From the IMG/VR virus record IMGVR_UViG_3300043409_001427, positions 1-64,000 of that record: a stretch of DNA of 64,000 nucleotides; one strand, given 5' to 3'. Of the stretch, positions 49,938-64,000 are shown one piece after another; the stretch's first letter is position 1; every line of letters begins with the position of its first letter. The notes below the pieces were generated by a model. That model did no database searches. It had not been told where the DNA came from and saw only the letters and a program-made list of their open reading frames with translations. The stretch comes from a virus. The position numbers and the translations under genes are program-made.

Positions 49938-50372
49938 ATGACTTGGCACCACAAAGGGTCTATAGTTACAGAACTGCCTGAAGATTGTGTGGGATTTGTT
50001 TATCTTATCTCATGTAATACCTCCGGCCGGATGTATATTGGCAAAAAATTAGCAAAATTTAGTAAAACGACCTACAAGACTGTAAAGTTAAAGAACGGCA
50101 CCAAGAAGAAAAAGAAAATCAGAAGCAAAATAGACAGCGACTGGCAAGAATATTATGGCTCAAATATAGAACTTAACAAAGATGTTGAGTTACATGGCAA
50201 AGATAATTTCACACGAGAAATATTACATTACTGTAAAAGCAAAGCAGAAACATCGTACATTGAGGCCCGCGAACAATTCGACCGCAAAGTATTAGAATCA
50301 AAAGAATATTATAACGGACAGATCTCAGTCCGTGTACATGGCTCCCACATAATCAACAAAATTGGCTCATAA
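49938..50372 (+). CDS. GIY-YIG-like nuclease fold protein
   Basis: A 144-residue basic protein. GFVYLISCNTSGRMYIGKK reproduces the GIY-YIG start (Y-x-L...YIGKK), and the later EARE and the basic KKKKKIRSK loop fit Seg-type or repair-type members. The usual second-strand Arg and the Glu are plausible but not secure. It may be a free-standing homing nuclease or a DNA-repair enzyme. It lies immediately before the structured intergenic region. Confidence 0.6.
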   Translation: MTWHHKGSIVTELPEDCVGFVYLISCNTSGRMYIGKKLAKFSKTTYKTVKLKNGTKKKKKIRSKIDSDWQEYYGSNIELNKDVELHGKDNFTREILHYCKSKAETSYIEAREQFDRKVLESKEYYNGQISVRVHGSHIINKIGS

Positions 50373-50722
50373 GCGGTACTAAGCTCGCACTAGCTAATAT
50401 CTTGTGCCCGGAAACCTGGATCTCGGATCGCAGGGAGGGAAATCTCTTGCCGCAAAGAGTACTTAATCAGCATCCTTTACAGGACCACGATCGCAAAATG
50501 CCTGCGGTTTGATTATTTGAATAGAGTGAATATAGGCCCAATGAGTGGATAAAACCACAGGTTTATGAATATGTTAGTGTATATTTGTAAGCTGCCGTCG
50601 TGTGTGAAAACACAAATAACTGAGCTCGAGGTACCGGATGACCGCCTCTGTAATGCTTTAACACTAGTGACTGTAAGAACTCAGATAATGTTCTTCTTTT
50701 TATTTTGCCCGTGCAAACGGGC
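50373..50722 (+). ncRNA. candidate structured non-coding RNA (no gene in this 491-bp gap)
   Basis: The gap 50373-50863 has no credible ORF but is full of local helices: 50387-50407; 50444-50459 (CTCTT/AAGAG); 50473-50484 (TCCT-TTAC-AGGA); 50490-50508 (6 bp, loop AAATGCC); 50549-50566; 50601-50614 (TGTGT-GAAA-ACACA, a GNRA loop); 50675-50695; 50707-50722 (GCCCGT-GCAA-ACGGGC, another GNRA loop). The base composition is richer in G and C than its flanks. No group I intron core, tmRNA or RNase P signature is visible. The 5' end and the strand are inferred; the plus strand is favoured because a T-rich tract follows the 50675-50695 stem. Confidence 0.5.
50675..50706 (+). terminator. possible intrinsic terminator of the RNA
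   Basis: Stem AAGAAC (50675-50680) with GTTCTT (50690-50695), followed by CTTTTTATTTT. The stem is AU-rich, so only moderately stable. A GNRA-capped hairpin follows. Confidence 0.5.
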
Positions 50723-50826
50723 AATTGTGACTGACGAATCTAGATAATACTTAAATTACTTCGTAATATATCAATTAAAAAAATGCTTCGAGCGATTAGC
50801 GAAGAAGCAAACGAACGCAGTTCGGT

Positions 50827-50834
50827 TATAAATA
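50827..50834 (+). promoter_or_regulatory. T4-type late promoter TATAAATA
   Basis: Exact late consensus 30 bases before the ATG at 50864. It marks the start of the 50.8-53.9 kb structural genes and argues against the upstream in-frame ATG at 50783. Confidence 0.75.
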
Positions 50835-50863
50835 GTTCTAATAACTTCTGGAATAATTTACCC

Positions 50864-53200
50864 ATGAGCATCAAACATATTATTGATCGATTAGATGAGA
50901 TAGAACAAAATACCCCGACAATTAAGAAATATATTGTTGAGAGTGTATACAATGCTCCGGAAATGACTAAGCATTGGAGGAAACTCGATGAAGGGTTTGC
51001 CAAGGGCTATAGTCGATACTTAAATGAGGTTGCTCTAACTCCTGATCAGATACAAAATATCTTTAAACAGGCAGGTGGTACGGCAGGTGAAGCTCCAAAA
51101 GATCCGAGCAAGCTAGCAGGGCTTGTTGATAAAATTCTTCCAACAGGCCAAGCAGCCAATTTAGAAAAGACATTACCTGAACCGGATGCAGGTCCTGTCC
51201 AAGGATTTGAACAAAAAGCCGCAGCCGCAGTACAGAACATCCAAGGTGCAGACAGCGCAACTAAGCAAAGTTTGATGCAATGGATCAAACAAGGTGTTGC
51301 TAAACCAGAATCACAACAACTTATTCTAGCCGCGGTAGGCGCCGGATTAGGTACTATCCTAAGTAAAGTTGGCCCAATTATTAGTATGATACCCGGTGCA
51401 GGACCATTTGTAGCTGCCATAACTGGTGCTTTAATTGCAGGAGCGATATCAGTTGCTAGTGCTAAACTACAAGGTAAAGACTGGAAAACGGCATTTAAAG
51501 GTGCAATTAAACCAGCATTAATGGGCGGTGCTGCCGCAGTTGTTGGTAATTTAGCGGCTACTGCGATAGGTACAGGTTTAGGTGCAATGACCGGCGGTCA
51601 AGATCAAGCAGCCGCCCCACTACCTGGCGCAAGTTTAGGTGTTGGAAAAGAACTTCCAGATGGTGAAGTCATTAGTGCATTAGATTCAAGTAATCCAAAT
51701 TCAGGAGTCACAATTCAAAGACCAGATGGCTCAACATACACAGTTAGTCGAGACACTGCCCAAGCTATGACGGGTCAAACTGGTATCAGCAATCAGGCAA
51801 ATATGACAGGACCTGTTAGCATGGGCGCCGCAAGTGATCCTCAAGCAGGGGTAAGCGATAGTGGAGGATCTGGTGCAAAAACAAATACTGATAAATCCTT
51901 AATGAGATTAAAGGGATATGATCCAGATGCTCCTAATGAGGTAAAAGCATGGGACAAGATCACCGCAGGGAATAAAGACTTAAACACAATACCCAATATT
52001 GATTCCGGTTTTAGTGGGGCGCAAGCAGGCGGACCCAAACCAACTATTGGACAAAACTTTGATCCAGGCTCCGCACCAATTGGCGCAAACGGACAACCAA
52101 TGCGCCAAGTGCCTATGGATGCCCCTGCTGTTACACCTAGCACACCTAGTGATGGTTCGTATCAACAAGCCGCACCAATTGGTGCAAACGGACAACCAAT
52201 GCAACAAGTTCCTATGGATGCCCCTCCACCTAAAGGAGCCGGTATGGATCCTGAATATCTAGCGAAGATTGCTAGAGGGGAAGGCGGTCGTGCATTAATA
52301 AGTCAAGATGCCGCCAAAGCTGCCATTGCCTGGCAAGCGCAAAATGGCGGGCAGGTTATACCTCCTCCAGCACCATCAAGTAATGTAACATTACCGGGTG
52401 GACTTTCTCAATACTATAAAGATAATCCTGGCATTAGAGAAAATGCAATCGATCAACAGGCAACACTTCGTGGTTGGCTTAAAAAAGATCAACAAGGTAT
52501 TACTATAAACTCGGTTCAATTAACACCTATGTTTGTTGAAGGCATTATGGATTTCTTTAAAGGTAAAGGTAAAGAAGCCGCACCTGCTGCCGCAGGTAGT
52601 GGAGTTACTCCTGATGCGTTAAACAAAGCCTGGGCAGACGCAGGCAGTCCAACGGACAGCGATGAAGTTTCTAAAGTATTACAGAGCGCCGGAGTCCCAG
52701 CAGAAACAGTTACAAAGATTTTTACAGATTTAAAAATACCCGCTCCTGGAGCATCTCCGGAAGCACCAAAAGATCCGGCCGCAACACCAACAGCGGCAGA
52801 CGGCGAAACTCCCCCAGCACCAGCAGGAGAGAAACCGGCTGATGCTTCAGCCCCAGATGCTACAACACCGCCAGATGAGTTAGCCGATATTAAAAAGAAT
52901 GCCGGACTTCCTACAACTCCACCTCCTACAGATGCTACAGCACCTGCTTCGACAACCGGTAGTGTTGATCCGGCAACATCTGCGGCAGTAGAACCTCCTC
53001 CGACACCACAAGCAGAAAAACAATCTAAGGTAGGAGTTGGTCAAATTAATAAAGTTATTCCAACTTTGAGAGTTAGAGATTTAACCAGTGTTCAAAAGAC
53101 TGTTGATAATACACTGGCAAAAAGACAATCGACAAAGCAACCAACAGCAGAAGGTAAATATGTTGGAGTTTACAGCAACTTTTTAGGAAGAGACATATAA
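50864..53200 (+). CDS. large low-complexity virion-like protein
   Basis: A 778-residue protein. The first 60 residues are helical (IKHIIDRLDEIEQNTPTIKKYI). About 155-260 is a hydrophobic Gly/Ala-rich stretch (LAAVGAGLGTILSKVGPIISM, VAAITGALIAGAISVASA) that could cross or penetrate a membrane. The middle and C-terminal parts are Pro/Ala/Gly linkers with two copies of APIGANGQPMRQVPMDAP. The end has SKVGVGQINKVIPTLRVRD, shared with the next protein. A late promoter lies 30 bp upstream. The ATG at 50783 is rejected. It is probably a minor virion or injected protein; this is inference. Confidence 0.65.
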   Translation: MSIKHIIDRLDEIEQNTPTIKKYIVESVYNAPEMTKHWRKLDEGFAKGYSRYLNEVALTPDQIQNIFKQAGGTAGEAPKDPSKLAGLVDKILPTGQAANLEKTLPEPDAGPVQGFEQKAAAAVQNIQGADSATKQSLMQWIKQGVAKPESQQLILAAVGAGLGTILSKVGPIISMIPGAGPFVAAITGALIAGAISVASAKLQGKDWKTAFKGAIKPALMGGAAAVVGNLAATAIGTGLGAMTGGQDQAAAPLPGASLGVGKELPDGEVISALDSSNPNSGVTIQRPDGSTYTVSRDTAQAMTGQTGISNQANMTGPVSMGAASDPQAGVSDSGGSGAKTNTDKSLMRLKGYDPDAPNEVKAWDKITAGNKDLNTIPNIDSGFSGAQAGGPKPTIGQNFDPGSAPIGANGQPMRQVPMDAPAVTPSTPSDGSYQQAAPIGANGQPMQQVPMDAPPPKGAGMDPEYLAKIARGEGGRALISQDAAKAAIAWQAQNGGQVIPPPAPSSNVTLPGGLSQYYKDNPGIRENAIDQQATLRGWLKKDQQGITINSVQLTPMFVEGIMDFFKGKGKEAAPAAAGSGVTPDALNKAWADAGSPTDSDEVSKVLQSAGVPAETVTKIFTDLKIPAPGASPEAPKDPAATPTAADGETPPAPAGEKPADASAPDATTPPDELADIKKNAGLPTTPPPTDATAPASTTGSVDPATSAAVEPPPTPQAEKQSKVGVGQINKVIPTLRVRDLTSVQKTVDNTLAKRQSTKQPTAEGKYVGVYSNFLGRDI
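52069..52227 (+). repeat. two-copy repeat inside the low-complexity gene
   Basis: Copies at about 52073-52124 and 52169-52226 encode APIGANGQPMRQVPMDAP and APIGANGQPMQQVPMDAP. They are nearly identical in DNA too, separated by about 45 bp. Confidence 0.75.
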
Positions 53201-53201
53201 T

Positions 53202-53909
53202 ATGCGTATCAATGAATTATTAGCAGAACAAGAACAACTAGATGAACTAAGCCTTAAGGGGTTAGGTCAGGGCATAGGCAAAGCAGTAGGTGCAGCCGCT
53301 GGGGGAATAGTTCAAGGCGCAAAAAATGTTTGGTCAGGTGCAAAACAAGGTTACGCCGCAGGGCAGGCAGCATTAGCGCCAGGGGCTGATCCAGCCGCTG
53401 ATCCAGCCGCCGCAGGCAGTACTGCACCAGCAACGGGCAGCGGCGGCGCTGTAGCAACACCTCCAGCAGGACAAGCACCGGCAGCAACACCTCCAGCAGG
53501 ACAAGCACCGGCAGCAACACCTCCAGCAGGACAAGCACCGGCAGCAACACCTCCAGCAGGACAAGCACCGGCAGCAACACCTCCAGCAGGTGGAGAAGCT
53601 CCTGCAAGTCCAGCAGTAGATCAAGCAAGTAAAGTTGGTGTAGGACAAATTAATAAACTTATTCCAACACTACGAACCCGAGATTTAAACAGCGTAAAGA
53701 AAACTGTTGACGCTACTCTTGTTAAGAAACAAAAGCAACCGGCAGCACCAGCGGCAGCGCCAGCTAAACCAGGAGCGGTGGCACCAGCGGCGCCAACTCA
53801 AGCAGAGCTTGATGCTGATCGAGAAAGATTAATGGGACCAGATAACGGTGGCGCGAACGAAAGCAAGATCGTTAGATTTGAAAGTCGTTTCTTAGGAATG
53901 ATGATTTAA
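53202..53909 (+). CDS. Pro/Ala-repeat virion-like protein
   Basis: A 235-residue protein. The N-terminus MRINELLAEQEQLDELSLKGLG is helical, followed by a Gly/Ala segment and a repeat (PPAGQAPAAT) with four perfect copies. The C-terminal part (SKVGVGQINKLIPTLRTRDLN, then KTVDATLVKKQ) matches the end of the preceding protein, so the two share a domain. It is separated from the next gene by converging terminators. Unknown function, probably a structural partner of the previous protein. Confidence 0.65.
   Translation: MRINELLAEQEQLDELSLKGLGQGIGKAVGAAAGGIVQGAKNVWSGAKQGYAAGQAALAPGADPAADPAAAGSTAPATGSGGAVATPPAGQAPAATPPAGQAPAATPPAGQAPAATPPAGQAPAATPPAGGEAPASPAVDQASKVGVGQINKLIPTLRTRDLNSVKKTVDATLVKKQKQPAAPAAAPAKPGAVAPAAPTQAELDADRERLMGPDNGGANESKIVRFESRFLGMMI
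53454..53590 (+). repeat. 30-bp tandem repeat, four perfect copies
   Basis: Units begin at 53461, 53491, 53521 and 53551 (each starting CTCCAGCAGGACAAGCACCG), with a partial copy after 53581. In frame, each unit adds ten residues, so copy changes would keep the frame. Confidence 0.95.
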
Positions 53910-63831: not shown

Positions 63832-63891
63832 GTTGGACCTAATATCTGCAAACTTGCTAAATAATCATGTTCACCCCGTAAGGGAGTTTAT

Positions 63892-63905
63892 GCGGTCCCC
63901 ACCGC
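63892..63905 (+). other. hairpin in leader of the next structural gene
   Basis: GCGGT-CCCC-ACCGC, a perfect 5-bp stem, about 40 bp before the ATG at 63946. A CCC/GGG pair lies upstream at about 63874-63884. It may affect RNA stability or translation. Confidence 0.45.
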
Positions 63906-63945
63906 GTAGGCAATAGAACTGTCTAACAATTTAAGGAGAAACAAA

Positions 63946-64000
63946 ATGGGACGCCCTATTAAAAAACAATTTTTTGGAAATTTAAACCTAGGTGCTGCAA
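63946..64000 (+). CDS. start of a structural gene (cut by window end)
   Basis: Only 18 codons are visible: MGRPIKKQFFGNLNLGAA. AAGGAG at 63933-63938 precedes the ATG. It lies directly downstream of gp23, where T4-like phages often keep another virion gene. It continues beyond the window. Confidence 0.6.
   Translation, partial: MGRPIKKQFFGNLNLGAA

Follow-up and report, generated by a model that had tools for sequence, protein, structure and literature searches.

What occupies the gene-free gap of about 400 bases that lies between a GIY-YIG gene and a late-promoter-like site in the genome of a freshwater T4-like phage? We examined this gap within a 64,000-nucleotide stretch of that genome (hereafter the window). 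The gap is bordered on the left by a SegE-type GIY-YIG gene located directly upstream (49938-50372, + strand; Pfam SegE_GIY-YIG PF19835, E 7.9e-32) and on the right by TATAAATA, a late-promoter-like site of the downstream gene (50827-50834, + strand). An earlier note made from the sequence had placed a structured non-coding RNA at 50373-50722, between a GIY-YIG-like gene and a late promoter, and both of these borders were recovered here. We likewise found no credible ORF in 50373-50722, and the G+C content of the interval (0.44) is indeed higher than that of the upstream gene (0.37) and of the DNA just downstream (0.32), the value for the whole 64-kb window being 0.39. The predicted folding energy of the interval is unremarkable (z = −1.1, with 16 of 100 shuffled sequences equally or more stable). 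Support for an RNA at this locus therefore comes from covariation and not from stability.

Some neighboring features can be described from the same window. A gene for a 65-aa Hc1-like protein (histone H1-like, PF07432; 49737-49934, + strand) adjoins SegE. An ORF at 53202-53909 (+ strand) contains PAGQAPAATP peptide repeats in tandem, and no family match was obtained either for the long preceding ORF (50783-53200). Another freshwater RNA with an Rfam entry, freshwater-2 (RF02980), was detected at 63871-63948 (+ strand; 61.5 bits, E 6e-7); this match overlaps the start codon of a 301-aa ORF (L522:147-1052) and looks like a leader or ribosome-binding-site element.

Identity and extent of the RNA

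The 5' third of the locus belongs to a known family. With cmscan, positions 50382-50518 (+ strand) match Rfam RF01718, Polynucleobacter-1, over the full length of the model (model positions 1-141; 102.1 bits, E 5.9e-21), far above the gathering cut-off of 37 bits, and the RF01718 consensus helices P1b, P2, P3, P4 and P6 are kept by compensatory change. RF01718 was reported in 2010 as a probable RNA of Burkholderiales and of fresh water or estuary, probably cis-regulatory (Weinberg 2010, PMC2864571). The 3' two thirds of the locus match no Rfam family by cmscan, so that the statement in the earlier note that no RNA class was recognisable is correct for this portion but not for the 5' third.

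The RNA does not stop where the RF01718 model stops. At least 590 relatives of the window's SegE gene occur in IMG/VR, and blastn showed that the DNA just downstream of SegE is conserved in about 60 of the best 80 loci, mostly as a block of about 385 nt at about 70-76% identity among these roughly 60 relatives, with a steady spacing of about 465 nt to the next ORF. Conservation and covarying helices run on to about 50749, beyond both the end of the RF01718 match (50518) and the previously proposed end at 50722, which was too short. By blastn relatives and covariation, the conserved core is thus a structured RNA of about 375 nt (50373-50749, + strand), the start of which coincides with the SegE stop codon. 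The Rfam RF01718 model is a fragment of this larger unit. Taken as a whole, the unit is a new, longer version of an RNA that was known but has received very little study, and it has relatives outside Rfam.

Dozens of phage contigs in IMG/VR carry this RNA 3' of a GIY-YIG gene of the SegE type, with one module per large contig (in one of these, G012, the exact pattern missed the module). No isolated phage carrying it was found by blastn, the module is absent near SegE in Melnitz, among the nearest SegE isolates, and the module pattern had no exact match in bacterial genomes of 84,980 species. A phAPEC8-type match was rejected as a relative because it covers merely 45 bases of promoter-like sequence.

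Covariation and secondary structure

We examined pairing with a home-made R-scape-style test (G statistic with average-product correction) on 114 non-redundant relatives, using a null in which substitutions are redistributed along the tree. Many pairs exceeded this tree-aware null (E < 0.1), long-range and pseudoknot pairs included. A pseudoknotted model of 75 pairs was then written from the covarying pairs and counted on a fresh MAFFT alignment of 70 relatives. Under this model 88.8% of cells were paired, compared with 35-44% when partners were slid by 1-3 columns, although the model derives partly from the same loci and so has an advantage over the slid versions. Changes on both sides of a pair were found in 59 of the 75 pairs, and the covariation score was 0.436 (0.179 for shuffled and 0.07-0.10 for slid versions). 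On none of the five measures did any of 500 shuffles equal the model, and all 19 helices contained at least one pair changed on both sides. The number and spread of these double changes put the existence of an RNA here nearly beyond doubt: on comparative grounds the locus is almost certainly a structured non-coding RNA. The earlier note, which had read the locus as such and listed many local helices, was right on both counts, since these helices are conserved by covariation and compensatory changes in homologous intergenic regions were clearly found.

Other identities were rejected. Covariation and the lack of a conserved ORF exclude a degraded gene, ARAGORN predicted no tRNA or tmRNA gene in 14 loci, and a retron, DGR or other RT-linked RNA was dismissed because a reverse transcriptase occurred in none of 12 records, which may be fragments.

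The model contains four pseudoknots (all coordinates are on the + strand). In the first, PK1, which is absent from the Rfam structure, the 5' end (50373-50377) pairs with the P3 loop (50449-50453; 78% paired, double changes in 3 of 5 pairs). The second is an H-type pseudoknot at 50383-50407 formed by P1a (50383-50385:50392-50394; 90.5% of cells paired, double changes in 1 of 3 pairs) and P1b (50387-50391:50403-50407; 97.9% of cells paired, double changes in 4 of 5 pairs). The third, PK2 (50574-50667), joins the P7 loop (50574-50579) to 50662-50667 (93.3% paired, double changes in 5 of 6 pairs), and in the fourth P8 crosses P9 and P10. P8 (50597-50601:50638-50642; 96.8% paired), P9 (50622-50625:50655-50658; 92.1%) and P10 (50628-50631:50645-50648; 96.4%) all show double changes, and the region that they form (50597-50658) holds the conserved sequence GGUAC.GG...ACCGCC.

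The remaining helices are local. The loop of the P3 hairpin (50444-50459; 93.8% paired, double changes in 3 of 4 pairs) takes part in PK1. P4 (50465-50468:50511-50514, spanning 50465-50514; 99.6% paired, double changes in 4 of 4 pairs) encloses P5 (50470:50486 and 50474-50475:50482-50483) and P6 (50490-50494:50504-50508). P6b (50545-50558; 75% paired, double changes in 4 of 4 pairs) lies 3' of a conserved AGGC..AAAA.GA segment and is followed by P7, a 10-bp hairpin (50563-50590) with double changes in all 10 pairs. The P2 hairpin (50415-50434) occurs in several alternative sequence forms among the relatives, and forms that occupy the same position can be unrelated in sequence (L050, L105 and L122; columns 58-85 of alignment A1). 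One such form is a CUC-GAUAAUAA-GAG hairpin, the loop of which resembles the twin words described below without obviously tracking them.

Two hairpins had been singled out in the earlier note as GNRA-capped, but neither represents a conserved GNRA motif. The 'GAAA' hairpin (~50600-50615) falls in alignment columns that are mostly gaps, whereas the 'GCAA' hairpin has a conserved stem, the GC-rich P11 (50705-50724; double changes in 4 of 6 pairs, in a gappy part of the alignment), with a variable loop. The stem and T-run noted near the end are both present, but the T-run (~50694-50706) sits 5' of the stem, and an intrinsic terminator at 50694-50724 was rejected because the T-run is on the wrong side.

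Twin words in the 3' module

On the 3' side of the fold lie two single-stranded copies of one short word (written with T for U), here AGATAAT. The first, X1 (50683-50689, + strand), follows an invariant ACUC, and the second, X2 (50742-50748, + strand), follows GUGAC-N6-AUCU, giving the order ACUC-AGATAAT-G, the GC-rich hairpin P11, and GUGAC-N6-AUCU-AGATAAT-A. The module can be generalised as hairpin - UGRC - N - CUC-X1 - hairpin - UGRC - N - UCU-X2. We collected 188 loci by combining the SegE loci with a pattern scan of IMG/VR in which two dinucleotides and the purines were left free and identity of the words was not required. The word varies between phages, but X1 and X2 are the same within each phage in 188/188 loci, with no mixed state. 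Its dinucleotide is AG in 85 loci, GG in 68, GA in 18, GC in 10 and AC in 7, and its tail is AAT in 150, GAT in 30 and GAA in 8. On the RNA tree these differences amount to about 37 joint changes of X1 and X2 (20+7+9+1), with 20, 7 and 9 at the three main variable positions.

A second class of RNAs, defined by the core CTSTGWGAAAAAGATACAAC, carries far more diverse words that still match within each phage, for example ATGAAGAG, ACGAAGAG, ATAGCAG, ATCAGAA, ACGAAAT, AGGTAAT and AGATCAA, nearly all of them placed after CUC and UCU. Because detection of this class favoured identical words, its evidence for identity is weaker than that of the 188 loci. The matched words are 6-9 nt long, and in both classes the columns of X1 and X2 covary with each other only. 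We know of no precedent for such a twin-word module in a phage RNA.

The identity of the words might arise at the DNA level, through concerted evolution or recombination in which copying or strand exchange keeps the two copies the same while X has no role in the RNA. Direct repeats around a palindrome favour template switching and the words do flank a palindrome; identity without a third partner is, moreover, what recombination cores show. However, the identity is limited to 6-9 nt next to neighbors, CUC before X1 and UCU before X2, that are invariantly different, and we saw neither inverted arms nor a recombinase partner. We regard this explanation as very improbable. Ribosome hopping of the T4 gene 60 type, in which matched codons flank a hairpin, was considered because X often reads NNA-TRA; it was ruled out, as there is no ORF entering the module and the R of the supposed stop varies in step between the two words.

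Search for a partner of the words

We looked for anything beyond the two copies that follows X. Within the loci, in the RNA and its flanks alike, no extra copy or complement of X was enriched, and neither column covariation nor an alignment-free search revealed a partner in cis. In 16 large contigs with different X, no remote covarying DNA site was found in the alignable regions. With the exception of two stray cases, the homologous sites at which both genomes carry their own X all fell at the RNA locus; this comparison considered only DNA in the alignable part of each genome, to which a protein partner would be invisible. X is not a repeated regulatory DNA site, as it has just two copies in the window and there is one module per large contig. 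Nor is SegE the reader of X, because L070 and L072 share an identical SegE but differ in X.

These results also bear on whether the RNA is a ribozyme or processing element with the X sites as cut or exchange points, the hairpin between them being removed or circularised. The conserved fold is of catalytic size and the hairpin is flanked by two identical sites, but no internal guide complementary to X was found and there was no match to an Rfam intron or ribozyme family, on which ground a group I or group II intron or known ribozyme was rejected as well. Such an activity thus appears quite improbable.

A modular RNA family

Some relatives carry a different 5' part at the same place joined to the same 3' module. 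This is the case for a first cluster of five loci (L006, L047, L053, L054 and L060), for a second cluster of 12 loci, and for L152, which has a different gene context. Loci with near-identical SegE genes can carry different RNA classes (L004 vs L006, L051 vs L053) that share the 3' module only, which suggests that cassettes are exchanged beside the nuclease gene. Such exchange is made plausible by a paper entitled 'Nuclease genes occupy boundaries of genetic exchange between bacteriophages' (PMC10448857). In L324 a Polynucleobacter-1-like 5' part is fused, by eye, to the class 2 core. Class 2 (L305-L420) is widespread, occurring in other sample collections and in very large phage contigs, and the four class 2 loci that were compared with Rfam had no match at E up to 1. 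The RNA studied here is therefore one form of a modular superfamily in T4-like and larger environmental phages.

Transcription signals and gene context

With no space between the end of SegE and the start of the RNA, co-transcription with SegE or a promoter inside that gene is probable here. A sigma70-like promoter lies upstream of the RNA in 17 of 39 relatives without SegE and in 4 of 34 with SegE (Fisher p 0.004), and L342 has TTGACA-N18-TATACT shortly upstream. On the 3' side, X2 is closely followed by a UUCG-containing hairpin (50755-50767, + strand), and in 88 of 109 relatives CTTCG lies no more than 45 nt from X2. A terminator-like hairpin (50812-50824, + strand) lies 5' of the late promoter, and terminator-like hairpins were predicted downstream in 97 of 109 relatives, as compared with 9 of 109 shuffles. 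These signals suggest that + strand transcription continues past SegE and ends at the hairpins before the late promoter.

The RNA might act in cis, either within the gp47-gp46-SegE transcript, as a processing signal or 3' UTR structure, or as a leader of the downstream gene. Its start at the SegE stop codon would fit such control, and the 5' part was scored as probably cis-regulatory by its discoverers in 2010 (PMC2864571). However, terminator-like hairpins and a late promoter lie between the RNA and the downstream gene, the neighboring gene is not fixed, some relatives being found in other gene contexts, and neither role requires two matching words. We therefore consider control in cis unlikely.

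Possible mode of action

The transcript ColE1 RNA II, long and folded, remains paired with its template and serves as a replication primer (PMC5043065), and at T4 oriF and oriG replication starts at R-loops with an A+T-rich unwinding element (PMC3016281). These precedents lead us to propose that the RNA may be a transcript resembling ColE1 RNA II in which the upstream X settles on the template DNA at the downstream X and forms an R-loop or primer. The folded body of the RNA would hold X1 out as a single strand, and when RNA polymerase crosses X2, X1 of the nascent RNA would seize the template strand of X2. With this pairing a lasting RNA-DNA hybrid would begin in the A+T-rich DNA immediately 3' of X2 (A+T climbs to 0.7 after X2, from about 0.5-0.6), and the hybrid would open the DNA and prime or regulate replication. 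We infer transcription, the hybrid and any role in replication from sequence.

Several observations would be explained by a hybrid between X1 and the template. Since X1 equals X2, X1 is complementary to the template DNA strand of X2, so that by sequence the RNA contains, in all 188 loci, a segment complementary to template DNA elsewhere than at its own template. Pairing of this kind would account for word identity without a third partner, and the poor tolerance of wobble in RNA-DNA hybrids would account for strict identity without A/G mixing; wobble-free ordinary helices do exist, however (e.g. the pair 50599:50640, which lacks wobble intermediates), and the absence of A/G mixing in X is thus not decisive alone. 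The hybrid would also explain why each genome has a single copy and why so large a fold is conserved upstream. On the other side, T4 replication starts from several origins, 7 nt is short for a hybrid, and the invariant CUC and UCU before the words are left unexplained. In addition, R-loops at T4 oriF are reported to be independent of specific sequences (PMC3016281), and an X-recognising protein encoded in regions too diverged to align would fit as well. In only 3 of 11 contigs is the minimum of cumulative GC skew found at a distance of about 5 kb or less from the RNA, and its position may just follow gene orientation. Priming or R-loop formation at X2 is the most likely specific mechanism, but we put it forward tentatively, as a possibility that may well prove wrong.

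The chief alternative is an independent RNA or RNP that acts in trans, in spirit like GOLLD, ROOL or 6S, in which the folded body is a scaffold and a dimeric phage protein, or a single RNA target in trans that co-evolves with X, docks at the two identical words. The large pseudoknotted fold present in one copy per genome, the promoter-like sites in relatives without SegE and the lack of a fixed neighboring gene are all consistent with it, and a protein partner would escape the DNA comparison of large contigs. Nevertheless, as X differs even between loci with identical SegE (L070/L072), such a protein would have to change often. No nucleic-acid partner was found within the loci or the alignable genome regions, and if both words paired with one shared RNA, G/A wobble intermediates should occur, yet there are none. 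Both the scaffold and the docking sites are possible rather than probable; taken as a whole class, trans-acting RNAs are about as likely as an R-loop or primer formed by X1, while being less specific.

More generally, the 3' module might work by sameness, with the RNA recognising its own template DNA or a partner that follows automatically. This broader reading comes nearer to an even chance without reaching it, and it would imply an undescribed, widespread superfamily in which a word of 6-9 nt is free to change as long as its copies match. If true, it would point either to an origin or priming system of T4-like phages that is new and directed by RNA, or to some other self-referential mechanism, the latter without close precedent.

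Comparison with known systems

The catalogued Polynucleobacter-1 motif shares with our locus its fresh-water setting and, at 102 bits over window positions 50382-50518, the whole of its model. That model covers only the 5' third, without the 3' domain and the twin words, and lacks the pseudoknots found here (5' end/P3 loop and P1a/P1b). What had been catalogued as a small motif is a piece of a much larger pseudoknotted RNA of many uncultured T4-like phages, the tail of which is shared by relatives outside Rfam. GOLLD and ROOL are likewise large structured phage RNAs of unknown function, GOLLD with a conserved 3' and a variable 5' region (PMC12286853). They differ from the present RNA in being ~660 to >800 nt long, often near tRNA islands, and members of other families (PMC12286853), and the RNA has no Rfam match to either.

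The twin-word module presents a clean, testable puzzle, in that the words match each other and nothing else that we found. T4 oriF and oriG are similar to the present locus in belonging to the same broad phage group (gp46/gp47-like neighbors) and in combining a promoter-driven RNA with A+T-rich DNA. Unlike it, they are about 100 bp long, have no large, conserved folded RNA as their basis, and form a hybrid reported not to need a specific sequence (PMC3016281). The rules of R-loop formation are listed there as an open question, and if the words mark the formation of an RNA-DNA hybrid, they would offer a sequence handle on what governs R-loops at origins (PMC3016281).

With ColE1 RNA II the likeness would be one of mode of working alone and not of membership, and similarity in sequence or fold is not expected. 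In ColE1 RNA II an upstream G-rich RNA loop pairs with a downstream C-rich stretch of the template, so that there, too, the transcript contains a direct repeat. We know of no RNA I-like antisense for the phage RNA, in which the repeat varies between phages and its copies are merely ~60 nt apart. What the two would have in common is that a non-coding transcript, long and structured, remains persistently hybridised to its template DNA (PMC5043065).
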